NCBI GenBank assembly: GCA_947591315.1
Contig: CANQDD010000004.1
Span: forward strand, 1-64,000
Length of the DNA stretch: 64,000 bases
Direction: 5' to 3'
From: an uncultured Clostridia bacterium
GTDB taxonomy: Bacteria; Bacillota; Clostridia; UBA1381
Each line of letters begins with the position of its first letter. Positions within the stretch are counted from its first letter, which is position 1. The notes beneath the pieces were generated by a model. It did not search any database. It had not been told where the DNA came from and was given only the letters and a program-made list of their open reading frames with translations. Shown one piece after another: positions 24,951 to 34,651 of this stretch. Made by a program: the position numbers and the translations under genes.

Positions 24951-24978
24951 AAAACGTTCCGCGGTGCGGAACGTTTTT
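24951..24978. terminator. Terminator after the DtxR-type gene
   Basis: AAAACGTTCCGC/GCGGAACGTTTTTT hairpin with a T-run; the A-run upstream means it can also end the leftward exopolysaccharide operon, whose stop is at 24978. Confidence 0.9.
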
Positions 24979-25637
24979 TAATATGCGCCGCGTGTGAAAA
25001 GAACGGCGAAAACAGTTTTTATTATCAGCCACGCGTCGAGGCGCAAAGAGCGGCGCTGTATGTACTTCATATCCATATCCATCCAGTCCTCGAAGGAGAG
25101 CTGACTTCTGCCGTACGCCTGCCAGAAGCAGGTAAGTCCCGGCTTTATGAGAAGCCGCTGCATTTGGTACTCGCTGTACTGCTCCACTTCCTCCGGAAGC
25201 GGCGGGCGGGGTCCGACGATGCTCATATCGCCCTTCAGGATATTTATAAGCTGCGGAAGCTCGTCTATGCTGTACTTTCTTATGAATTTGCCCACCTTGG
25301 TGATACGCGGATCGTCCTTTATCTTGAACACGGGCCCGTCCATTTCGTTGAGGTGCATGAGCTCCGACTTTATTTTATCCGCGCCGGGACACATGCTCCT
25401 GAATTTGTACATCTTAAACGGCTTGTTGTTTTTACCCTGCCGCGTCTGCGCGTAAAACACGCTGCCGCCGTCGGTTTTGACGGCTATCGCGGTAACGAGA
25501 AAAAGCGGCGACAACACAATCAGCGCGACAAACGCGAAAAACACATCCAAAATACGCTTCACACACTCGTACATCGGCTTGTGAAGATCCTCGTCCGTTA
25601 TTCTTATCTTGATTTCTTCAGCCGCTTCTTTTATCAT
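24978..25637 (-). CDS. Initiating undecaprenyl-phosphate sugar-phosphate transferase
   Basis: A 219-residue monotopic phosphoglycosyl transferase (bacterial sugar transferase family, as WcaJ or EpsL). It has one N-terminal membrane segment (about 30-52), then KMYKFRSM, DEMDGP-like and DDPRITKVGKFIRKYSIDELPQL, and the catalytic NILKGDMSIVGPRPPLP. It moves a sugar phosphate from a nucleotide sugar to undecaprenyl phosphate to start the repeat unit. It is the last gene of the leftward wzz operon. The sugar cannot be predicted. Confidence 0.93.
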   Translation of the reverse strand: MIKEAAEEIKIRITDEDLHKPMYECVKRILDVFFAFVALIVLSPLFLVTAIAVKTDGGSVFYAQTRQGKNNKPFKMYKFRSMCPGADKIKSELMHLNEMDGPVFKIKDDPRITKVGKFIRKYSIDELPQLINILKGDMSIVGPRPPLPEEVEQYSEYQMQRLLIKPGLTCFWQAYGRSQLSFEDWMDMDMKYIQRRSLRLDAWLIIKTVFAVLFTRGAY

Positions 25638-25671: not shown

Positions 25672-26739
25672 TTAGTACCAACCTATGTCAACAACCATAA
25701 TTTCGGGTTTGTTGAATATTCTCGGACAAAGCCCCGATTTGCCCAGACCTCTCGTGATTAACAGACGGCTGTTGCCAATCTCGTGGTAGCCGTCGCAGAG
25801 CTTCGGGAAAAATCCCTGGTCGGCGGCGTACATTCCGCCTATCCACGGCAGCCTTACCTGTCCGCCGTGCGCGTGTCCCGCGAGCGCAAGGTCTATGTTG
25901 TAGTCGTCGAGCGTGCCGAAAAACTGCTCGGGATAGTGATTAAGCACAAGCTTAAAGTTATCCGTCGCGCTCATCGCCTTGTCGAAAAACGCCTTGCCGT
26001 ACTCCTCAAACTCCGTCGGATTCTGCGTAAGTCCGATTATGTCAATATCCGTGCCGCCTATGGTAACGGTCTCCGTCTCGTTGTTCATTATCTTTATGCC
26101 GGCTTTTTTTACGTCCTTGTAAATATTCGAGCCGCGGAACAGCATCGCGTCTATTTCGTGGTTGCCGAGCGAATAGTATACGGGCGCGATTTCGTTGAGC
26201 TTTACGCAGAGATTTATAACCGCGTCGTACTTATCGGGCTTGTTTTCCATGTTCATATCGCCGACAAGCGCGATTAGGTCGGGACTTAATTTGTCAACCT
26301 CATGTATGAGATTTTCGTTGTCCTTGCCGAATTCCTTAAGGTGCATATCCGAAAGGCATACTATACGTATGTTGTCCGTCACCTTGTTCGATTTCACCTG
26401 ATAGAACGTCTTTTCAAGCCGGTTGCTGTCTATAATCGCGGAAATCCCTACCGCACCCAAAAGCACGGCGACCGCAAGCAGTACAGCGGTGAATACTTTC
26501 GCTTTTTTGCTTTTTTTGCCGTCCTTGCCTTTGCTTCTGCCTCTAAGAGCAAACCTACGGCGGCGGCGCGCAGTCTCAACGTCCGCGGCGCTTTCCGCCT
26601 CGGCGGGTACGGCTTCGGCTTCCGCGGTTACTCCGGTTTCGGCAGCGTCGGCTGCGGTGTCGGTATTTACGCCGCCGTCCGTCGGCGCGGCATCATTTGT
26701 GTCCGCGCCGATATTCAGCTTTTCTTCTTTGTCAGACAT
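25672..26739 (-). CDS. Membrane-anchored metallophosphoesterase with charged N-terminal tail
   Basis: A 355-residue protein. An Ala/Glu/Asp-rich tail (about 1-60) and a basic patch (RRRRRFALRGRSKG, KKSKK) are followed by one membrane helix (about 82-104) and a calcineurin-like phosphoesterase domain that would lie outside. Metal-binding motifs are complete: CLSDMHL, GDMNMENK, GNHEID, NHYPE and GHAHGGQ. It resembles YkuE/YaeI-type enzymes. It lies inside the exopolysaccharide operon, 24 bp after the Wzz-GGDEF gene, where a phosphatase could act on an undecaprenyl pyrophosphate or on a lipid-linked product; that is inference only. Confidence 0.9.
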   Translation of the reverse strand: MSDKEEKLNIGADTNDAAPTDGGVNTDTAADAAETGVTAEAEAVPAEAESAADVETARRRRRFALRGRSKGKDGKKSKKAKVFTAVLLAVAVLLGAVGISAIIDSNRLEKTFYQVKSNKVTDNIRIVCLSDMHLKEFGKDNENLIHEVDKLSPDLIALVGDMNMENKPDKYDAVINLCVKLNEIAPVYYSLGNHEIDAMLFRGSNIYKDVKKAGIKIMNNETETVTIGGTDIDIIGLTQNPTEFEEYGKAFFDKAMSATDNFKLVLNHYPEQFFGTLDDYNIDLALAGHAHGGQVRLPWIGGMYAADQGFFPKLCDGYHEIGNSRLLITRGLGKSGLCPRIFNKPEIMVVDIGWY

Positions 26740-26763: not shown

Positions 26764-28884
26764 TTACTTCTTTCCGAAAAATTTTCCGATACCTTTAGAG
26801 CCTTTTTTGCCGTTAGCAGGCGTTTGCGGAGCGTCGTCCTCCAAGCTTACCTCAAAGGTCGTCGGCTTTCTTATGCCGCTGTGAGGCTCTTCGGTCTGCG
26901 GCTTTTCCTCCGCCTTCGGCTCGGTATTGCCGGCGCTGTTTATTTCCGGCTTCGCTTCCGGTTTTGCTTCGGCGGGCTTTGCTTCGACCGCGGGCTTAAC
27001 GTCCGGCTTTTCGTTTGTTTTGCCGCCGCTCTTCTGCGCCGCCTCGGACTTTGCTATCTTCGCCGCGTTGTCGCGTCTGTCCTCGGCTGCCGCCTTACGG
27101 AACGTTGCGCCCATGAGCTTTCTTATATCGTAAACCTGCTCGTCGTTCGTCTCGGCGACGGTTACGCTCATTTCTATGGTGCTGTTCGGCGTCTGAACGT
27201 TGTGGTAACGCACAAGCTCTTCGAGATACTGCTTAAAGTCGTTCGCTCTTTCAAGCGTGCAGTCCTCGAACATACAGATAAACTGCTCGCTGCCGTTATA
27301 TCCCGCGAAGCCGTAGCTCGACGCGGCACGCTTCATAACCTTACCGAACGCCTTAAGCAGCGCGTCTCCGGCCTCACGTCCGCCCTTCTCGTTTACGTAT
27401 TTCAGGTTGTTAATCTTGACAAGCGCGAATACGAAGTTATCCTTAAGCTTTTCAGCCGCGTATTTCTCAATTTCAATATCGCACATAGCACGGTTCGGAA
27501 GTCCGGTCTTTCTGTCCGTATACATGATATAGTCGAGAAATTCCTTGCTTCGTCCGAGGATAATCGCGCCGATACAGCCGCCGAAGAAGAAGATTATTAT
27601 CGCGAGGAAGATATACATTTTTACGTTTATCTTTTCCTCGGTGGTTATGCTCGCAAGCGTCGATACGTTGTACGCGCCGACGAACTGGTTGTACTCGTCA
27701 ACGGTGTCGGACACGGTCTGGTACATGTCGTTAAGCTCCTGTGACAGCTCGTCGAGGCTCTCCTCGATAAGAGACTTGTTGCTCATATCGCCGTTTGCCG
27801 CGCCGTCGGTGAATACCGCGAGAAGCTTGCGCTTGTGTTCGAGATCGACTTCAAGCTTTTCCTTTTCCGTTTCAAGCTCCACATATTCGTTTATAAGTCC
27901 GTCGTACGTCGTCTGGCTGTCAATCACGTCCTCCTCGCGGTGCTCGTCGTAAACGTCCTTCAATATGTAGTCGCTCGAATTGTTGCCCTCGTCAGCCTGT
28001 GTGCCGAAGTGGTACTCCGTGCCCTCCTTGTTCTTCGCGCTGTACTTGTTTATAAGATCCTGCAGGTCATTTATCTTTGTCTGCATGTTCTGCAGGTCAA
28101 GCTCGCACGTGCCTATATCGCTCTGGTACTTCTTTATGAGCGTGTCCTTGTCCTCCGTTACCTCCTGCTCCAATATAAGCGAATATATTTCGGGCAGGTC
28201 GTAGTCGAGGTAGCTCTGGTAAATTTCGTAAAGGTCGGTGAAGGAGTAGCCGGTCGCCGCGCTGCGGTAATTCGGCTGCGTCTCCTTCTTCGCAGCGAGG
28301 TAGTCGGATATGTTCATCGTCCACGAGTCGAGTATCTCGGCGCGCTCTATGTAATCGTACTGACCGTCGCTGCCGCGGACGCTGTTATTCGGGAGCGTCT
28401 GCTGGTTGATGTACTTTTCACCGTATGTCGCGAAGTAATTCTTTATTATCGAGTCGAGCACGGTACGGGCAAAGCTCTGGCTGTACTCGCTGCCGACGGA
28501 GAACGATACGATGTAATCCGTCGCGAAAAACTCGTATTCCTCGCCCTGCTCCAACAGAGCCTGCTTTCTTATCTCCTCGTCTGGCGGCGTTACCTCCTCG
28601 ACGCGGCACTTTGAACGGATCGTGTCCGCGCCCGTCGTTATGTTGAGATCCTCCAGCACGTTCGTTATAACGGTCGCGCTGTAAATTTCCGTAACGTCAA
28701 TGTCGTCGCCGGACGGCGTTTTGCCTCTCGACGCGTCATTATTCGTGTAGCGTATAACGGTGCTTGCCGTGTACTCCTGATTTGACATCGCGTATCTGTA
28801 CACGAGCAGCGCGCCCAAAACGCAGACGATAAATATAAGGTATTTCCACTTACTTAGGTATCTGAGAAGATTGAACTTATTCAC
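26764..28884 (-). CDS. Wzz-like chain-length protein fused to a degenerate GGDEF domain
   Basis: About 706 residues counted from GTG 28884, which has GGGAGG 9 nt upstream; ATG 28893 touches that site, and TTG 28920 is also in frame. Order: TM1 (about 15-32), an extracytoplasmic Wzz-like region with long coiled coil (about 240-410), TM2 (about 421-444), then a cytoplasmic GGDEF-like domain. The domain begins TDRKTGLPNR, the usual diguanylate cyclase opening, but the active-site motif is GSEQF (about 531-535), with the catalytic Glu changed to Gln and no RxxD inhibitory site. A Lys/Pro/Glu/Ala tail and a basic GKKGSKGIGKFFGKK end follow. It overlaps the upstream Wzz gene and is probably coupled to it. 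Likely role: c-di-GMP or protein-protein control of polysaccharide chain length. Confidence 0.85.
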   Translation of the reverse strand: MNKFNLLRYLSKWKYLIFIVCVLGALLVYRYAMSNQEYTASTVIRYTNNDASRGKTPSGDDIDVTEIYSATVITNVLEDLNITTGADTIRSKCRVEEVTPPDEEIRKQALLEQGEEYEFFATDYIVSFSVGSEYSQSFARTVLDSIIKNYFATYGEKYINQQTLPNNSVRGSDGQYDYIERAEILDSWTMNISDYLAAKKETQPNYRSAATGYSFTDLYEIYQSYLDYDLPEIYSLILEQEVTEDKDTLIKKYQSDIGTCELDLQNMQTKINDLQDLINKYSAKNKEGTEYHFGTQADEGNNSSDYILKDVYDEHREEDVIDSQTTYDGLINEYVELETEKEKLEVDLEHKRKLLAVFTDGAANGDMSNKSLIEESLDELSQELNDMYQTVSDTVDEYNQFVGAYNVSTLASITTEEKINVKMYIFLAIIIFFFGGCIGAIILGRSKEFLDYIMYTDRKTGLPNRAMCDIEIEKYAAEKLKDNFVFALVKINNLKYVNEKGGREAGDALLKAFGKVMKRAASSYGFAGYNGSEQFICMFEDCTLERANDFKQYLEELVRYHNVQTPNSTIEMSVTVAETNDEQVYDIRKLMGATFRKAAAEDRRDNAAKIAKSEAAQKSGGKTNEKPDVKPAVEAKPAEAKPEAKPEINSAGNTEPKAEEKPQTEEPHSGIRKPTTFEVSLEDDAPQTPANGKKGSKGIGKFFGKK

Positions 28885-30274
28885 CGAGCGCATCCTCCCT
28901 TCTTCTGATATATCCGTCAAGGAAGTAGTACGCTATACACAGCAGCGCGAAGAACACAAGCGCGCTGCCGATGAGTGAACGCAGCACAAACAGTCCGTCG
29001 CCGCTGCCTTCCATGGCCGCGAACGTCAGATAATCCTTTGTCGTATGCTTTATGTATTCCTTATCCGTGGTGTCGGCTAAGAGCGCGACGTCCTTAAGCT
29101 CCTTGTCGACGCTCGCTATAAGCTCCTCCGCCTTCGCGTAGTCGGCGTCCGTCGCTCCCGACGCGGAAACCTTGGAGATAATATCGTTGTTCTCAATCAT
29201 GTTACGCTCCACTTCGCTGCCCTGCGACAGGCTGTAGTCCGCGTCCTTTGTGAGATAGTCCGTTCCTATGTTTGTACGCGACATGTAATACTCGCGCTGC
29301 TCGTTTACGGACGGTACCATTACCGTGCCTATCATCGCGCTGTCGTAATTCTCAACGCCCTGCTTTCTTACGTTGTAGTCTATCATAAACTTGCGGTACT
29401 GAATATCGAGCATATCATTTTTGTAAGTAAGAGTACGTATATAATGGTCTCTGTTACGCGCCATGCCCGATTCGAGCACGAACGCGTAGTATTTCTTTAT
29501 GCTGTACGACTGGACGTTCTGGATCATGCGCCGTATCGTCTGGAAGCTCTGTCCCGTAACGTCCGAGCGGTAGGTCGCGTTCTGCTCTATTCTCTGCTGA
29601 ATGTAACGCAGCATCTGATCCGATTTCTTTGTGAAAAGTCTCGCTATTTCTATGTACTCCAAGCCGTCTATGTCGCCCAGATCGTACTGGAGCACCGATT
29701 TTGTGCCGACGTACTTCTCGTGGAAAATGTCGTTGTACGCCTTGCATATAAGCTCTACCATGTCATCTGTGGAAATGTTGTGTATTTTCTTGTCCTTTGT
29801 GTATGTGACGGTATAGCTTGTGGATATGTAGTATGTATTTGTGTCGAGCGGATCTATGGTCTTTCCGCTGTCGGTTTCCGCTATATCCACATGGTCGGCA
29901 AGCTCCTCCGCCGTAACGTCGTCCTGAAGTCCGGCGTACTCTATGACGCGCTCCATAACCTCGTCCGACTTAAGCTCATACACGTTGCATCGCGTCAGGT
30001 TCGGATTCTGTCCCTTGGACGCTTCCTCGTAGTTCAATGACAGTATGACGGTCTTTCTGCCGAAGCTGCCAACGTACGCAATAATCGTCCATACAACCGC
30101 AAACACGCAAACAAACACCAATATGCTCTTTATGTTGCTCAGAACAATAAAGAAAATCTTTTTGAAGATATTGGCGTCCTGCAGGTTGACTTCCTGATAC
30201 TTTTCTTCGCTTTTCCTGAAAAAGCCAAGAAGTCTGCTCGGTTCCTTTCTTTTTTTATTCCTCTTCCACTTCAT
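28877..30274 (-). CDS. Wzz-like polysaccharide co-polymerase
   Basis: A 465-residue protein with a basic cytoplasmic N-terminus, TM1 (about 48-68), a large extracytoplasmic domain rich in helices, TM2 (about 431-450) and a short basic tail. This layout is that of chain-length determinant (Wzz/CapA-like) proteins of exopolysaccharide systems; sequence motifs are weak, so the call rests on topology and context. It has no tyrosine-kinase domain and no BY-kinase gene is adjacent. It heads the wzz-wzz/GGDEF-phosphoesterase-sugar transferase operon, with its own promoter at 30342-30370. Confidence 0.8.
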   Translation of the reverse strand: MKWKRNKKRKEPSRLLGFFRKSEEKYQEVNLQDANIFKKIFFIVLSNIKSILVFVCVFAVVWTIIAYVGSFGRKTVILSLNYEEASKGQNPNLTRCNVYELKSDEVMERVIEYAGLQDDVTAEELADHVDIAETDSGKTIDPLDTNTYYISTSYTVTYTKDKKIHNISTDDMVELICKAYNDIFHEKYVGTKSVLQYDLGDIDGLEYIEIARLFTKKSDQMLRYIQQRIEQNATYRSDVTGQSFQTIRRMIQNVQSYSIKKYYAFVLESGMARNRDHYIRTLTYKNDMLDIQYRKFMIDYNVRKQGVENYDSAMIGTVMVPSVNEQREYYMSRTNIGTDYLTKDADYSLSQGSEVERNMIENNDIISKVSASGATDADYAKAEELIASVDKELKDVALLADTTDKEYIKHTTKDYLTFAAMEGSGDGLFVLRSLIGSALVFFALLCIAYYFLDGYIRRREDALGE

Positions 30275-30392: not shown

Positions 30393-31703
30393 TCATGTTG
30401 TCAGATATTTATACAATCGGCTCGGTTTTTGCTCCTTTACCCAGGGCCACAGCTTGACCTCTTTGTCGTCCGCTATGTGGAACGCGTACGCCATGGGCAT
30501 AAGCCGGAGCGACATACTTGTATAATAGTAATAAAGCGTGTTGTCCGTCATGTAGGTTATAAATATATACATTTCGCTCAGAAAGAACAGCATCGCCACT
30601 TTTTCTCCCCAGTGCGTGAGCATCCACCGAAGCTGGAACACCCACGTATAAAGAAGCCATGCCCAGAAGCCTATAAAGCCGAGCTCAATATATACGGTAA
30701 GAATGTTGTTGTGCAGCGCGACAACGCCTATCTTCGCTTCGGGGTTGTCGAGCATTACCTGCTGCAGAATTACGGTCGTGTATTCAAAGCCGTAGCCGAT
30801 AAAGCCGAGACTTATATCGTAATATTTTTCTATGTAGTCGTAAACCTCGTTTCGTCCCATTGTGTTGATGCCGAGCGTTTCCGTTACGGCGTCGAAAACG
30901 CCGGTACGCGTCGCGACGACGTACAAAAACGAGAATATTACAAAGCCCCACGCGATTATCTGCATAAATCTCTTACGTGATCTCGGGCGCATCCAACCCA
31001 TCATGACAGCCGCCGCTATTGCCGCGGGCAGCGCCGCGAGCGCGATTCGTTTCCAGCCGAGTATGAAGAAGAACGCCGCAGCCATAATATCTATGACACG
31101 TTCGCGGTCGTGCTTCGCGAAAAAGACAAAATATATTATGTAAAAGCCGAACGCGAAGGTTATGTCGTGTATCTCCATGGCGCGCGCAAAGCCCTCCTGC
31201 GCCTCCGCGCCGCGGAACATCGCCATCATGGACTCAACGCTCGGGCCTATGCCGTACGTTCCGAGGTTTATTACCAGCATTATCGAATTCGCGAGCACAA
31301 GTCCGTAAAAGGTCGCGTGTATCGCCCTTTCGCCGAACATGTATACGCCGGCGAAGATTATGAGCAGCACAAGGAACTGGTACATGAATTTCGACGCTCC
31401 GCGTATGATAAACTCAATCGTTTCGAGGTTGATTATCCAAAGGAATATCGACCAGACTATTATGCCGATAAGCACGAACGCGTACACTCCGACAAAGCTC
31501 GACGTTTTCTGTATCCTGTTCAGGTTCCCCGATATGAGCAGCACAGCCGCGCCGATAACGACTATGATAAGGCTTACCGCCTTCATCATTCTCGTCATGC
31601 TGACGGAGAAAATCGACATGTCGCCCACCGCGGACACGGCAAGCACGATGATGTAGACCGCCATAAGAAACTTACTGTATTTACCTGTCTCTTCGTCAAA
31701 CAA
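30393..31703 (-). CDS. Wzy-like polysaccharide polymerase / O-antigen ligase family
   Basis: A 436-residue membrane protein with about ten to twelve helices and one larger extracytoplasmic loop near residues 280-340 that includes MGRNEVYDYIEKYYDISLGFIGYGFEYTT-type sequence, the family's conserved loop region, then ALHNNILTVYIELGFIGF. Wzy/WaaL-type proteins link repeat units on the outer face of the membrane. It overlaps the acyltransferase gene upstream by 8 bp. Polymerase rather than ligase is inferred from the Bacillota context and from the nearby Wzz proteins. Confidence 0.85.
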   Translation of the reverse strand: MFDEETGKYSKFLMAVYIIVLAVSAVGDMSIFSVSMTRMMKAVSLIIVVIGAAVLLISGNLNRIQKTSSFVGVYAFVLIGIIVWSIFLWIINLETIEFIIRGASKFMYQFLVLLIIFAGVYMFGERAIHATFYGLVLANSIMLVINLGTYGIGPSVESMMAMFRGAEAQEGFARAMEIHDITFAFGFYIIYFVFFAKHDRERVIDIMAAAFFFILGWKRIALAALPAAIAAAVMMGWMRPRSRKRFMQIIAWGFVIFSFLYVVATRTGVFDAVTETLGINTMGRNEVYDYIEKYYDISLGFIGYGFEYTTVILQQVMLDNPEAKIGVVALHNNILTVYIELGFIGFWAWLLYTWVFQLRWMLTHWGEKVAMLFFLSEMYIFITYMTDNTLYYYYTSMSLRLMPMAYAFHIADDKEVKLWPWVKEQKPSRLYKYLTT

Positions 31704-32268
31704 GCCTGTCCGCCTCCTTTTGCTTTTTTCGTATTTCCTCGCTTCGCTTCTGTATCACAACGCTGCCGCTTTCGTAATTTCCCTTTATGACGCTGCCCGC
31801 GCCTATAACGCAGTCGTCGCCGATAACCGTGCCGCGCAGTATGACGCTGTTCGCGCCTATCCACACGTTCGAGCCTATCGTAACGGGGGCGGTCTTGTAG
31901 CCGCTGTCGTGAAGGATCTGCCCCGCTGCCGCGGCGTGGTCGTGGTCGTATATTAGGACGTTCGGTCCGAAGCAGCTGTACGCGCCTATCGTGATGTTCT
32001 CGTGCGACACAGCCATGCAGCCGTTGTTGAAGAAGCAGCCCTCTCCGATTTTGAGAACGCCGCCGTCGGCTTCAAGCACCGTGTTCCTGTTCGCGTGAAT
32101 GTGTCTGCCGAGCAAGATTTTACCGCCGTCATGCGGACAGAGCTTTACCGACAGAGCGAAATCCTGCACGGCGGAGCCTTTGAGCGCGCCCATATTCATG
32201 ATTTTCACGAAAGCTATATGTATAAGCGAAAGGAATGCGCGTACACACAGCGACAGCTTCTTTTTCAT
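31696..32268 (-). CDS. Hexapeptide-repeat (LbetaH) acyltransferase
   Basis: A left-handed beta-helix acyltransferase of 190 residues. Hexapeptide repeats run from about residue 55 to 170 (for example GRHIHANRNTVLEADGG, SHENITIGAYS, APVTIGSNVWIGANSVI, GTVIGDDCVIGAGSVI). The loop DHDH after VLIY holds the catalytic His. It resembles WbbJ/CapG-type O-acetyltransferases that modify polysaccharide sugars. ATG 32268 is chosen, since GGGGGAAAG lies just upstream; an in-frame TTG at 32292 would overlap the previous gene. It starts one base after the GT4 stop. Confidence 0.92.
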   Translation of the reverse strand: MKKKLSLCVRAFLSLIHIAFVKIMNMGALKGSAVQDFALSVKLCPHDGGKILLGRHIHANRNTVLEADGGVLKIGEGCFFNNGCMAVSHENITIGAYSCFGPNVLIYDHDHAAAAGQILHDSGYKTAPVTIGSNVWIGANSVILRGTVIGDDCVIGAGSVIKGNYESGSVVIQKRSEEIRKKQKEADRLV

Positions 32269-32269
32269 T

Positions 32270-33373
32270 TTACTTTCCCCCGTATATTTCAAGCGTTTTG
32301 CGGGTAACCGTGTCCCAGCCGTAATTTTCCTTTATATATTTCACCTGCTCCGCCGTACCGCGCTTCGGTTCGGCAAGCGCTTCGGTGAGCTTTTGCCTCA
32401 AGTCGTCCGTGTTTCCCTTTTTAAACGTCATGCCGTAACCGTTTACGACCGTTTTTGTTTCGGGAATGTCGCTCACGAGGCACCGGGCTCCGCAGCCCAT
32501 AGCCTCCAGAAGCGTCAGCGGCATACCCTCGACATCGCTCGGAAGCACGTAGAGGAATGTGTTCGAGAACAGTTCCCAAAGCGCATCGCCCTCGACGAAG
32601 CCGGTAAAAATTATGCGTCCGTCGCCTTCGGCGAGATGTTTTACCTTCTCCGCGTACGCCGACGAGTGGCTCACACCGCCCGCTATCACGAGCTTTTTGT
32701 CGGTGTCGGTGTTCTTAAACGCCTCTATGAGGTAGTGAAGTCCCTTTTCCGGCACTATGCGCGCTAGAAACAATATGTAACCGTCTTTTTCAAGACCGTA
32801 TTTTTCCTTTATTATCGCCGCGCTATCCGTTTTACGCGCGTCAACGCCGTTTTGCAGAAATATAGTGTCGCGGCTGTACGTTTTTTTAAAATAGTCCCGT
32901 ACGTTCTCCGACAGGACGATTATTTCGTCGGCGTACTTCGCGGCTGTCTTTTCGCCGAATTTGAGAAATTTCGTCGCGAAGCCGCCCCACTTCGCCCGCT
33001 GCCAGTCGAGACCGTGTATCGTCGCGACGGTGCGTATGCCGAAAAGGTGCGGCAGCCATATCATCGAGCAAGGGCCTTCCGCGTGGTAGTGTATCACGTC
33101 GTATCTGCCGAAAAGCGCAAGGAATGACGCTATAACGGAGTACACAATCGCGTTTAATTTGCCGTTTTCAAACGTCGGCACGTTCTTTATCCTGACGCCC
33201 TCGTACTCCTTCACGTTCGCCGTCTCGCCGCCCGAAACGTGCTTGCCGCGCCGGTTGTACGCCGTCACGTCATGCCCCGCCGCAGCCATGCGCCGCGACA
33301 GCTCGCCGACGACTATCTCAACGCCGCCCTCGCGCGACGGTATGCGCTTGTGACCTATCATTGCAATTTTCAT
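32270..33373 (-). CDS. GT4-family glycosyltransferase
   Basis: A 367-residue GT-B enzyme adding a sugar to the growing repeat unit. The N-terminal domain begins MKIAMIGHKRIPSREGGVE, typical of rhamnosyl- or related transferases of exopolysaccharide clusters. The C-terminal GT4 domain has LFLARIVPEKGLHYLIEAF, and the donor-binding region SDVEGMPLTLLEAMGCG (E-x7-E type). No membrane segment. Donor and acceptor unknown. Confidence 0.93.
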   Translation of the reverse strand: MKIAMIGHKRIPSREGGVEIVVGELSRRMAAAGHDVTAYNRRGKHVSGGETANVKEYEGVRIKNVPTFENGKLNAIVYSVIASFLALFGRYDVIHYHAEGPCSMIWLPHLFGIRTVATIHGLDWQRAKWGGFATKFLKFGEKTAAKYADEIIVLSENVRDYFKKTYSRDTIFLQNGVDARKTDSAAIIKEKYGLEKDGYILFLARIVPEKGLHYLIEAFKNTDTDKKLVIAGGVSHSSAYAEKVKHLAEGDGRIIFTGFVEGDALWELFSNTFLYVLPSDVEGMPLTLLEAMGCGARCLVSDIPETKTVVNGYGMTFKKGNTDDLRQKLTEALAEPKRGTAEQVKYIKENYGWDTVTRKTLEIYGGK

Positions 33374-33386
33374 GACGTTATCTCCG

Positions 33387-34586
33387 TTACTTGTCCCTGC
33401 CGATTAAATCCTCATATATGGCAATCATTTTCTCCGTGTATTCCTTAACGGTGTCGTAGCTTATATCGGCGCAGTTTTTGCTCATCTCATGGCATACGTC
33501 GGGGTTTTTCCACAAGTAGTCTATCTTTGCCGCAAGCTCATCGGCGTTTCCGCTCTCGAAAAGCATACCCGTCCTGCCCTCGTCGATAAGCTCCGGTATA
33601 CCGCCGATATTCGCGCCCAGAACGGGTGTGCGGAGCGTCTGCGACTCCATTACCGAAAACGGGCAGTTTTCCGACCATTCCGACGCTATAACGCTCAGGC
33701 GCGCCTGTTCTATCACGGCGTTGAGCTTCGCTCCGCCGAGGAAACCGAGATTTTTTATATTGCTTACGCCGTTTATCTCGTCCTCCAGTTCGCCCCTGCC
33801 GCAGAACGCGAATTTTACGTGCGGCAGCGCGCGCGCGGCTTTGAGCAGCGTTTTTATGCCCTTTTCCTCGCTATAACGCCCGAAGTACACGACGTAGTTT
33901 TTCTTTTTGGCGTTCGAGGGTTTTATATCCTCGATAAAATTATACAACACTTCCGTCCGTCCCGCAATGTCCGGATTTTGGCAAAGCTCGTTTTCCATAA
34001 ATTTTGACGGGCAGATTATTTTGTCGATGCTTTGGTAAGTGTGCAGCCTTCGGTACAAATATCCCTCCGCCGCGCCGAGCATACTGCGCATACGTGAATT
34101 ATGCACGCAGCGGTGCTTTACGCAATTCATATACTTTCCGCCGTAGCACTCGCGGCACAGTCCCGCCGTATCGCCGTTTGTGAGCTTGTGGCACGGGCAG
34201 ACAAGCTGCACGTCGTGCGCCGTGTAAACCATCGGTATGCCGCGCTTTTTAAGCTCGTATACGATTGACGGCGTAAGCTGGAAGTTGAAGTTGTTTAGAT
34301 GCGCGACGTCGGGCTTAAAGTCGTCAAGCACCTTTTTAAGCTGCTTTCTCGCGCCGCGCGAGTATATTATTTTGAACGGATAGGTGAGATAGCTCACGCT
34401 TTTTTTGTGGAAGTCGATACCCTGCGCGTACGCGTTCGCATCGTTGCCCGTTTCGTTGCGGCTGTCAGCCATACCGAAAAACTGTACCTCGCAGCCCGCC
34501 TCCCACAGCGCTTTGCCGAGCTTGAACACGTACGTTTCCGCTCCGCCCTTGGGGTACAGGTATTTATTTATAAGCAGTATTTTCAT
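33387..34586 (-). CDS. GT4-family glycosyltransferase
   Basis: A 399-residue GT-B enzyme. The N-terminus reads MKILLINKYLYPKGGAETYV, with a Gly-Gly-Ala-Glu loop common in GT4 enzymes. A cysteine-rich stretch (about 140-175, CPCHKLTN, CRECYGGKYMNC) may bind metal. The GT4 domain has YFGRYSEEKGIKTLLKAAR, and SEWSENCPFSVMESQTL with the conserved E-x7-E region. ATG 34586 is used; GGGGGAGG is 11 nt upstream. It is the first gene of the leftward polysaccharide operon; the promoter is at 34623-34651. Confidence 0.92.
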   Translation of the reverse strand: MKILLINKYLYPKGGAETYVFKLGKALWEAGCEVQFFGMADSRNETGNDANAYAQGIDFHKKSVSYLTYPFKIIYSRGARKQLKKVLDDFKPDVAHLNNFNFQLTPSIVYELKKRGIPMVYTAHDVQLVCPCHKLTNGDTAGLCRECYGGKYMNCVKHRCVHNSRMRSMLGAAEGYLYRRLHTYQSIDKIICPSKFMENELCQNPDIAGRTEVLYNFIEDIKPSNAKKKNYVVYFGRYSEEKGIKTLLKAARALPHVKFAFCGRGELEDEINGVSNIKNLGFLGGAKLNAVIEQARLSVIASEWSENCPFSVMESQTLRTPVLGANIGGIPELIDEGRTGMLFESGNADELAAKIDYLWKNPDVCHEMSKNCADISYDTVKEYTEKMIAIYEDLIGRDK

Positions 34587-34622
34587 AAGAAGCGATACCT
34601 CCCCCATTACATCATATGTACT

Positions 34623-34651
34623 ATTATATATTATCATATTCTTTATTGCAA
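34623..34651 (-). promoter_or_regulatory. Promoter of the glycosyltransferase/wzy operon
   Basis: Minus strand: TTGCAA (34646-34651), 17 bp, TATAAT (34623-34628). Confidence 0.75.

Follow-up and report, generated by a model that had tools for sequence, protein, structure and literature searches.

The locus and its genes

The window analysed here is a stretch of 64,000 nt from an uncultured Clostridia bacterium (UBA1381; assembly GCA_947591315.1, contig CANQDD010000004.1, positions 1 to 64,000 of the forward strand). The gene under study, on the minus strand of the window, is a single open frame without internal stop and has its stop codon at 26764–26766. An earlier note on this DNA had chosen the GTG at 28884 as start codon. 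This choice is likely right, as an AGGGAGG (28900–28894) lies nine bases upstream and as the upstream gene, with its stop at 28877, runs 8 bases into this frame. The sequence analysed here, P0001, begins three codons earlier at an ATG. A frameshift artificially joining two genes, which would have spoken against the earlier reading, was not found; the gene is one and intact.

The protein comprises a short N-terminus, a first membrane helix (TM1), an extracytoplasmic region of ∼385 residues, a second membrane helix (TM2), a GGDEF-type domain and a tail rich in Lys, Pro, and Glu (Table 1). Two membrane helices had been noticed before, and the hydropathy peaks at windows starting 12–20 and 421–432 fit them and bracket the ectodomain. 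The tail, likewise noticed before, is present, but in this form it is restricted to close relatives, and many members stop just past the domain. The setting also proved to be the proposed Wzy-type polysaccharide cluster, with a Wzy-like gene, glycosyltransferases, and an initiating transferase beside the gene.

Table 1. Features of the locus (positions in the window)
Feature	Position	Strand	Remark
Short initiating sugar-phosphate transferase (Bac_transf)	24978..25637	-	
Calcineurin-like metallophosphoesterase (YaeI-like), conserved neighbour	25672..26739	-	
Wzz2-GGDEF, second of the two co-polymerase-like proteins in tandem; bears the degenerate GGDEF domain at its C-terminal end	26764..28884	-	706 aa from GTG
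Lys/Pro/Glu-rich tail	26764..27090	-	about residue 602 to the end; conservation confined to close relatives
Degenerate GGDEF domain	27112..27522	-	P0001 residues 458–594; GSEQF for GGDEF; keeps N501 and D510; metal Asp replaced by K493
Wzz1, paralogue in tandem, lacking a C-terminal domain	28877..30274	-	465 aa; profile match to the Wzz2 family
Wzy-like polymerase/O-antigen ligase family	30393..31703	-	Pfam Wzy_C
Hexapeptide-repeat acyltransferase-like protein	31696..32292	-	
Glycosyltransferase, family 4-type	32270..33373	-	
Glycosyltransferase, family 4-type	33387..34637	-	

Relationship to Wzz proteins

The designation as Wzz-like holds for the N-terminal ∼100 residues, whose profile aligned by hhalign over residues 2–103 with that of six Pfam-positive Wzz/CpsC-type proteins (96.5%, E 8.2e-10). 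Pfam itself did not return the family: PF02706 scored 18.8 bits, below the cut-off of 25.5, and was below the cut-off or unlisted in the scanned relatives. The architecture of a Wzz-like protein joined to a degenerate GGDEF domain is confirmed, the Wzz part being a remote homology seen by profile comparison. A GxxxG motif in TM2 and a proline-rich segment just before TM2 are described as features of Wzz/PCP co-polymerases (PMC7809406). The GGCIG in TM2 fits the former feature; the latter is absent, as there is no Pro between F361 and P466 of P0001. Searching the ectodomain against PDB profiles gave chance-level matches at most (best E 0.065). The family profiles of Wzz1 and Wzz2 aligned over 377 columns (hhalign E 9.5e-46) and thus share the ectodomain. 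The match of Wzz1 to the CpsC-type profile was weak (hhalign, 55% over 39 columns), so that Wzz1 is tied to Wzz mainly via Wzz2. In this gut bacterium, the membrane protein probably determines how long a sugar polymer of the cell surface becomes.

The GGDEF domain is degenerate and under purifying selection

The domain was identified by three methods: Pfam (PF00990, E 3.7e-16, 59.8 bits with a cut-off of 23.8, residues 458–594 on profile positions 2–144 of 161), PDB profile search, and hhalign (99.7% to 17 canonical GGDEF domains). At the level of sequence profiles, the other objection named in the earlier note, lack of a GGDEF fold after residue ∼450, is not borne out. As had been read from the sequence before, GSEQF replaces GG(D/E)EF and the preceding residues contain no RxxD; a canonical RxxD I-site was not found in the motif columns of the GGDEF-type alignment either. 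There are 83 distinct GGDEF-type members, one of which is cut before the motif, leaving 82 that can be assessed. The catalytic Glu is kept in 0/82, both metal ligands are kept in 0/82, and the full signature of diguanylate cyclases, a GG(D/E)EF motif including the catalytic Glu plus both metal-binding acids, is absent from all of them. The C-terminal Lys/Arg element that grips the phosphate is absent from members that stop at residue ∼600 and is not conserved in the others. Residues 501 and 510, corresponding to N335 and D344 of PleD, are presumably guanine contacts; the former is Asn in 65/83 members and Ser in 13/83, which form a subclade, and the latter is Asp in 81/82. In addition, there is a newly conserved set of residues: R506 (76/83), Y532 (76/82), N533 (81/82), G534 (74/82), and R591 (30 of 31 representatives). 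The domain is under purifying selection, with a dN/dS of 0.01–0.15 in 9 of 11 pairs (those with unsaturated dS), which is of the same order as in the ectodomain, and it is retained in 32/32 cluster representatives of its clade.

Distribution and an EAL-bearing sister clade

In a survey of relatives for this architecture, the GGDEF fusion recurred in 26 of 61 genomes (own genome included; in one the gene is broken into two frames, in another it is truncated by a contig end) and in at least 79 loci from named genomes. Of these loci, L057 and L124 are truncated by the end of a contig, L126 is without its start, and L086 is split. Carriers include a Monoglobus pectinilyticus record and Pseudoflavonifractor phocaeensis An507. 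In L024 and L086 (G003) the fusion gene lies in two overlapping frames. An artificial or chance fusion is ruled out by the presence of the same fusion in many separate assemblies. The scaffold without any C-terminal domain accounts for 18 of the 50 strong carriers in the class survey, among them G010 of the window's own genus; this tally leaves out G182, whose match lies at a contig end.

In other relatives, this position of the scaffold is taken by an EAL domain. Among the 13 distinct members of this type, 10 are degenerate. The Gln, the Glu of EAL, the Arg, Asn, Glu, the first Asp, the Lys, the second Glu of AEGVE, and the Gln of QGY are kept in 13/13, whereas in 10/13 the first Glu of AEGVE has become Cys, and Arg, Lys, or Gln stands in for the second Asp of DDFG. 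We take the kept residues to be contacts to c-di-GMP and the lost ones to be catalytic positions. With the residue roles assigned in this way, the pattern is the one predicted for an EAL domain that is competent for binding and non-catalytic.

In the tree, the GGDEF and the EAL types each make up a clade of their own; the tree omits L124 (cut at a contig end), and no single branch separates its outgroup from the rest. Forcing both types into one clade was rejected (p-AU 0.010), the groups having been named after the tree was seen and L124, L173 (long branch), and four outgroup rows being omitted. A member carrying both domains was not found among 117 distinct sequences. Both types may still descend from one ancestor, such as a GGDEF–EAL tandem that underwent losses, as the AU test rejects only one joint clade.

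Conserved neighbourhood and c-di-GMP enzymes of the carriers

Wzz1 is found within 200 bp upstream in 73 of the 78 GGDEF-type loci that could be checked and in 13/13 EAL-type loci, and a metallophosphoesterase gene is usually close by. A Wzy-like gene is present in all 60 GGDEF-type loci with 4 kb flanks. Close relatives of the window's Wzy were found in 0/9 EAL-type and 0/14 domainless loci; the domainless rows of the member set and of these neighbourhood counts include L124, and row L161 (4249–5604) is the upstream paralogue instead of a second subunit. The EAL-type locus L041 encodes a Wzy_C-positive protein (Pfam E 3.5e-10) with relatives in 11 of 13 EAL-type clusters (a count that includes L041), and a Wzy_C-positive protein is also encoded in L042, the one domainless locus that was rechecked. 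No BY-kinase or other tyrosine kinase was found in the flanking DNA at the loci of the 117 distinct members, and TIGR01007 scored over its cut-off in 0/16 genomes of the genus.

Further GGDEF and EAL proteins are present in the window's genome; PilZ gave no match in this genome, and a second GGDEF match was not found on the window's contig. At least two GGDEF matches (E 1e-3) occur in 33/33 GGDEF-type genomes, and at least one (E 1e-12) in 17/18 domainless and 13/13 EAL-type genomes. Given the count for the domainless carriers and a base rate of at least one match in 221 of 291 genomes of the class, other GGDEF genes in the carriers do not discriminate. A linked GGDEF gene was not significantly commoner in GGDEF-type (13/33) than in domainless genomes (2/16; Fisher p 0.097; with G010 added 3/17, p 0.20), and EAL-type loci had one in 3/12, the counts being made on whole contigs for the GGDEF type and by motif pattern in 1.8–15 kb upstream only for the other two. 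The linkage is suggestive at most. In 12 of the 19 genomes of one lineage, a second GGDEF gene lies about 9–12 kb off on the same strand of the contig, and its motif is intact in all six of these 12 in which it was read. The linked clusters encode a sensor cyclase of 766 aa. A cyclase-like gene is found 1.4 kb downstream in L063, and the Monoglobus pectinilyticus cluster contains a receiver–HD-GYP gene.

Discussion

The protein resembles the Wzz/CpsC-type co-polymerases (PCP-1 and PCP-2; PF02706) in the two helices around a large extracytoplasmic part, in its homologous N-terminus, and in being encoded together with Wzy, an initiating transferase, and glycosyltransferases. On the contrary, its ectodomain has no significant PDB profile match, the proline-rich segment before TM2 is lacking, the cytoplasmic side carries a GGDEF domain where these proteins have a BY-kinase or nothing, and two paralogues stand in tandem. 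With the BY-kinase co-polymerases (Wzc; CpsC–CpsD) it shares a C-terminal cytoplasmic control module, as proposed here, and a phosphoesterase in the neighbourhood. However, there is no kinase, and the phosphoesterase is calcineurin-like instead of being of the CpsB/CapC type (PF19567), which stands beside the kinase in all four related loci tested (L194, L196, L198, and L199).

LapD and FimX are degenerate EAL receptors. So is YkuI, as described in PMC9800504. The EAL-type relatives are like these three in keeping the putative ligand contacts and, in 10/13, in lacking catalytic residues, and unlike them in that a co-polymerase-like protein bears the domain at its C-terminal end. Alg44, which is not known to be related to Wzz, is also a co-polymerase with an attached domain of c-di-GMP signalling, but this domain is PilZ and the pathway is that of alginate. 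It is described as the alginate co-polymerase bearing a c-di-GMP receptor domain (PMC8461298).

Dead GGDEF domains are also part of polysaccharide machines in PelD, YdaK, and BcsE. PelD of Bacillus cereus is described to bind c-di-GMP through an intact RxxD I-site (PMC7112168) and YdaK to bind it via its I-site (PMC9800504). Unlike in PelD and YdaK, there is no I-site here, and the domain is borne by a Wzz-like protein encoded next to Wzy. The comparison with YdaK made in the earlier note is therefore a poor mechanistic fit, as YdaK uses the I-site, and here the canonical I-site and the GTP site are apparently both lost, so that direct binding of c-di-GMP or GTP would need a new site. The better indication of c-di-GMP is the EAL-bearing sister clade, which the earlier note had not seen. 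In a full-text search that covered few subscription papers, neither a Wzz-type protein with GGDEF or EAL nor c-di-GMP control of co-polymerases was reported in the titles and abstract starts of the matches listed.

We suggest that the locus encodes a co-polymerase pair of the Wzy pathway whose second subunit carries a dead c-di-GMP enzyme as cytoplasmic control module, and we give this explanation as a whole a probability of about 0.5. The gene product would be the second of two tandem Wzz-related subunits of a machine for Wzy-dependent exopolysaccharide, and Wzz1 and Wzz2 would probably form a mixed membrane ring around or beside Wzy. The catalytically dead GGDEF domain would project into the cytoplasm, in the position of the tyrosine kinase of classical systems, and act as a receiver or docking module for the state of the cell's c-di-GMP signalling, the input being either c-di-GMP itself or a diguanylate cyclase or phosphodiesterase that touches the domain. 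In response, the ring might alter its conformation or oligomerisation and so change the length or amount of the polymer. That the fused domain has a regulatory role of some kind is quite likely. c-di-GMP as the signal is, taken by itself, a plausible proposal with slightly less than even chances. The idea of the earlier note that one polypeptide controls chain length directly, with c-di-GMP, another nucleotide, or a contacting protein as input, may apply.

The strongest competitor is a module for protein contact only, in which the dead domain binds no nucleotide and dimerises the ring or docks Wzy, the initiating transferase, or a partner GGDEF protein. The loss of the catalytic Glu and of a complete metal site in all 82 members, while a new set of residues became conserved, would suit such a module, and the GGDEF domain of PdeB is reported to act through protein contact (PMC9061725). 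Nevertheless, this reading leaves unexplained why a second clade carries an EAL domain with the c-di-GMP contact residues kept throughout, and we consider it rather unlikely. A GTP sensor that uses the retained guanine contacts and turns polymer synthesis down or up with the nutrient state would account for the Asn at residue 501 and the Asp at residue 510. The degenerate GGDEF domain of CC3396 of Caulobacter is known to bind GTP. In our proteins, however, the metal ligands are incomplete in 82/82, the C-terminal phosphate-binding element is absent or unconserved, and the Asn has become Ser in one subclade, which makes this reading improbable.

The domain could also be a relic, brought in by the fusion and without any function itself, and the sister lineages of the scaffold without C-terminal domain, G010 included, might be adduced for this. 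A relic is already disfavoured and very improbable, as the low dN/dS and the retention of the domain in every cluster representative argue against it. That the domain is an unorthodox yet active diguanylate cyclase, or a nucleotidyl cyclase of another kind, is the least probable reading and hardly credible. In fact, VCA0965 (AGDEF) is reported to be active with one altered motif residue (PMC3974145), but here more than one residue is altered, the catalytic Glu and the complete metal site being absent from every assessable member.

Returning to the proposed control module in the second subunit, a wider proposal can be made, which we hold only tentatively and at less than even odds. GGDEF and EAL domains, enzymes with opposing actions on c-di-GMP, would have been recruited separately on one co-polymerase scaffold, would have gone dead, and would have replaced the tyrosine kinase as the control of the tandem pair, so that c-di-GMP signalling would set the length or output of exopolysaccharide after translation in gut Clostridia.

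Chain length in the Wzy pathway is described as tuned by tyrosine kinases and c-di-GMP control is described for synthase-dependent pathways (PMC12220298, PMC8461298). If our explanation is true, a dead GGDEF or EAL domain built into a co-polymerase would link the Wzy pathway and c-di-GMP control. As named strains carry the fusion (P. phocaeensis An507 and the M. pectinilyticus record), deletion of the domain or a binding assay looks feasible, and the explanation would offer a testable answer to how surface polymers are regulated in gut Clostridia such as this PilZ-negative one. The alternation of GGDEF and EAL on one scaffold is a natural experiment in enzymes turning into receptors, and the relatives bearing these domains suggest an unstudied route by which a cell signal may act directly on the polymer.

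Architecture of the fusion protein

The gene under study (Wzz2-GGDEF, here the fusion gene) encodes a membrane protein with a cytoplasmic GGDEF domain and directly follows Wzz1, a paralogue from which the C-terminal domain is absent. The earlier note had read, in one polypeptide, two membrane helices around an extracytoplasmic region, a C-terminal GGDEF domain and a Lys/Pro/Glu tail; the open frame, hydropathy, Pfam and the nearest relatives bear out this layout (see the table). In a PDB search with a profile of 22 relatives the top matches were GGDEF proteins (E 3.8e-13). Of the distinct PDB sequences, 47 reached E ≤ 0.001, and all of these aligned best within this domain, with no best stretch starting before profile position 446. 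The basic end of the tail is perhaps a membrane-touching helix. Two members in or near Monoglobus carry an extra low-complexity tail without Pfam match, and in one genome (G003; L024/L086) the fusion gene is broken into two overlapping frames.

Coordinates of the fusion gene, its protein and related features (L, loci; G, genomes)
Feature	Location	Remarks
Fusion gene	26764-28884 (-)	706 aa; single open frame, no internal stops
Start of fusion gene	GTG, 28884	AGGGAGG well spaced ahead; overlaps stop of Wzz1
Short N-terminus	before TM1	
TM1	residues ~17-36	hydropathy
Extracytoplasmic region	between TM1 and TM2	~385 residues
TM2	residues ~427-447	hydropathy
GGDEF domain	residues 458-594	Pfam E 3.7e-16
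Lys/Pro/Glu tail	after GGDEF domain	common to nearest relatives
KGIGKFFGKK, basic end of tail	26764-26800	kept in L009-L012, the four closest relatives listed
Wzz1	28877-30274 (-)	465 aa
Metallophosphoesterase	25672-26739	calcineurin-like, YaeI-like; probable membrane anchor
Members with extra tail	L061:11182-13713; L145:1504-4143 (G207)	~240-280 residues after GGDEF
Family-2 glycosyltransferase followed by Wzz1 paralogue	L042:6139-8541	window's genus (G010); single 801-aa frame; Pfam E 4.5e-38
Wzz plus BY-kinase-like domain	L199:2006-3424	window's family (G016); 473 aa; CpsB/CapC-type phosphatase adjoins
Linked cyclases, upstream in exopolysaccharide cluster	L229:14608-16914; L230:14050-16347; L231:2-2086 (cut); L232:328-2625	766-769-aa membrane sensor-like protein
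Receiver-HD-GYP gene	L233:960-2495	Monoglobus pectinilyticus, NZ_OY725743.1; HHE..DG.GYP motif; Hpt gene adjoins

Kinship to Wzz

The kinship to Wzz that had been claimed for the protein stands in part. A profile of CpsC-type proteins matches the N-terminal profile of the fusion family with 96.5% probability (E 8.2e-10, residues 2-103), but the Pfam Wzz model gives 18.8 bits, below its cut-off of 25.5, which the small CpsC-type proteins of related genomes exceed in six of six cases. Moreover, WzzB is described with a proline-rich segment ahead of TM2 (PMC7809406), whereas the fusion protein has none. By these formal tests it is best regarded as a remote relative of Wzz and not as a full member. 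Wzz1 is 24% identical to it over 259 residues and aligns with the family profile over 377 columns, nearly the entire ectodomain (hhalign, 100%, E 9.5e-46). Judged by homology and position, the two appear to be a Wzy-pathway co-polymerase pair.

Gram-positive systems usually keep Wzz and BY-kinase as two proteins; L199 combines both types of domain, and L042 joins a Wzz1 paralogue to a glycosyltransferase. MT839082.1 and MT836392.1 (unannotated "Bacteriophage sp.", human faeces), possibly bacterial contigs filed as phage, also contain relatives that share 33-34% identity with the query across 85% of its length. A GGDEF-type member in a record titled Bacteroidales bacterium Bact_11 (L074, LUZC01000088.1) is nested among Clostridia sequences and is a case of mis-binning or transfer.

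The degenerate GGDEF domain and its EAL counterpart

Among 83 distinct GGDEF-type members no GG(D/E)EF motif was found. In the 82 assessable for the motif (one is truncated ahead of it) the catalytic Glu is never present, nor are both metal ligands together; the first metal Asp is retained in 33/83 and an acid stands at the second metal position in 17/82. The guanine-contact positions (PleD numbering) are Asn in 65/83 and Asp in 81/82. A new YNG motif occupies the usual RxG place in 71/83, the I-site is absent from the motif columns, and the C-terminal element with the phosphate-binding residues is missing or unconserved. The degeneracy read in the earlier note is confirmed and extends to the family. 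Against 11 relatives dN/dS of the domain was 0.01-0.15 in nine pairs (saturated in two), of the same order as in the ectodomain. The domain therefore appears, on its residues, to be dead yet conserved.

When 391 genomes from the class were searched with the N-terminal profile, 69 gave matches, of which 50 were strong (E < 1e-50): 20 with GGDEF, 11 with EAL, 18 without domain, and G182, whose match lies at a contig end and is left out of these classes. Pfam confirmed the EAL domain in the eight members scanned (6e-29 to 5e-60). Residues that we take to be ligand contacts are kept in all 13 distinct EAL-type members and two catalytic positions are substituted in ten; L163 appears intact, L160 and L041 nearly so. 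The N-terminal tree unites all 32 GGDEF representatives in one group and all 12 EAL representatives in another (SH-aLRT 98 for both; 100 and 98 without the outgroup and one long row), and a joint group, named after the tree was seen, is rejected (p-AU 0.010). All three states, GGDEF, EAL and no domain, occur among members in the window's own family, so the distribution of the clusters departs from the species tree.

Gene neighbourhood

The rest of the window's cluster encodes a Wzy-type polymerase, two glycosyltransferases, an acyltransferase-like protein, the metallophosphoesterase and an initiating sugar-phosphate transferase. Wzz1 lies within 200 bp of the fusion in 73 of the 78 GGDEF-type loci (80 in total) with sufficient upstream sequence, and a metallophosphoesterase within 4 kb in 75/80, placed either immediately downstream or else immediately ahead of Wzz1. 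In the loci with 4 kb flanks, a relative of the window's Wzy is present in 60/60 and a sugar transferase in 50/60. EAL-type loci have Wzz1 and a directly downstream metallophosphoesterase in 13/13 each; domainless rows (n = 19) have Wzz1 in 12/18 and a metallophosphoesterase in 6/19. Close relatives of the window's Wzy occur in 0/9 EAL-type and 0/14 domainless loci; a Wzy_C-positive protein or a relative thereof is found in 11/13 EAL-type clusters, which favours the proposed mechanism a little. No BY-kinase was found in the loci of the three types. Among genomes that are incomplete, TIGR01007 exceeded its cut-off in 0/16 of the window's genus, and such a kinase is present in 16/41 searched. 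The calcineurin-like phosphoesterase may correspond to CpsB, the phosphatase in CpsBCD systems.

The window's genome has intact-looking GGDEF proteins (L001, L002 and, judged by motif only, L004) and three EAL matches; it gave no PilZ or HD_5 (HD-GYP) match, and its own contig no further GGDEF match. In the lineage with mostly YNGNGSF as motif, 12/19 genomes carry a second GGDEF gene that shares contig and strand with the fusion and lies 8.8-11.6 kb away from it (nine upstream, three downstream). In four loci, read in part beyond the linked cyclase, it lies upstream with an unbroken co-directional gene run down to the fusion, and its motif is an intact YRMGGDEF in 4/4, likewise in L225 and L228. 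The run in L229 matches GtrII, YdjC, a capsular-synthesis type transferase, sugar transferase, metallophosphoesterase, the fusion and Wzy_C; a 501-aa protein without Pfam match is flippase-like by eye. Six genomes (G028, G043, G047, G060, G111, G236) have two GGDEF matches each, the fusion and one sensor-like cyclase gene. In L063 (G372) a 295-aa gene with intact GGDEF motif lies 1.4 kb downstream. NZ_OY725743.1, called plasmid 19, has the receiver-HD-GYP gene within its cluster; its annotation names the fusion "GGDEF domain-containing protein" and Wzz1 "hypothetical protein". Linked GGDEF genes also occur near 2/16 domainless relatives (3/17 with G010) and 3/12 EAL-type ones; the contrast between fusion loci and domainless relatives is not significant, and this weaker contrast counts slightly against the proposed mechanism.

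Proposed mechanism

Co-polymerase, degenerate GGDEF and EAL are each already known; what appears undescribed in the literature searched is their combination, together with the tandem partner and the alternation between GGDEF and EAL on a common scaffold. No report of a fusion between a Wzz-type protein and GGDEF or EAL was found among the full-text matches listed, and a 2021 review on c-di-GMP control of exopolysaccharides never mentions Wzz or Wzy (PMC8461298).

We infer an oligomer acting on chain length, in which a bare co-polymerase-like subunit and a second such subunit that bears a cytoplasmic module would assemble with Wzy. Wzc-type proteins carry a kinase on the cytoplasmic side, whereas this family has the GGDEF or EAL module there, which would occupy the kinase position. 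As to the ligand, GTP binding by the GGDEF type seems less likely, as the site has lost its phosphate and metal parts. The GGDEF type, including the fusion protein, might instead bind c-di-GMP at a new site, contact a cyclase or phosphodiesterase, or serve as a purely protein-contact module. The EAL type would most naturally be read as binding c-di-GMP but not hydrolysing it.
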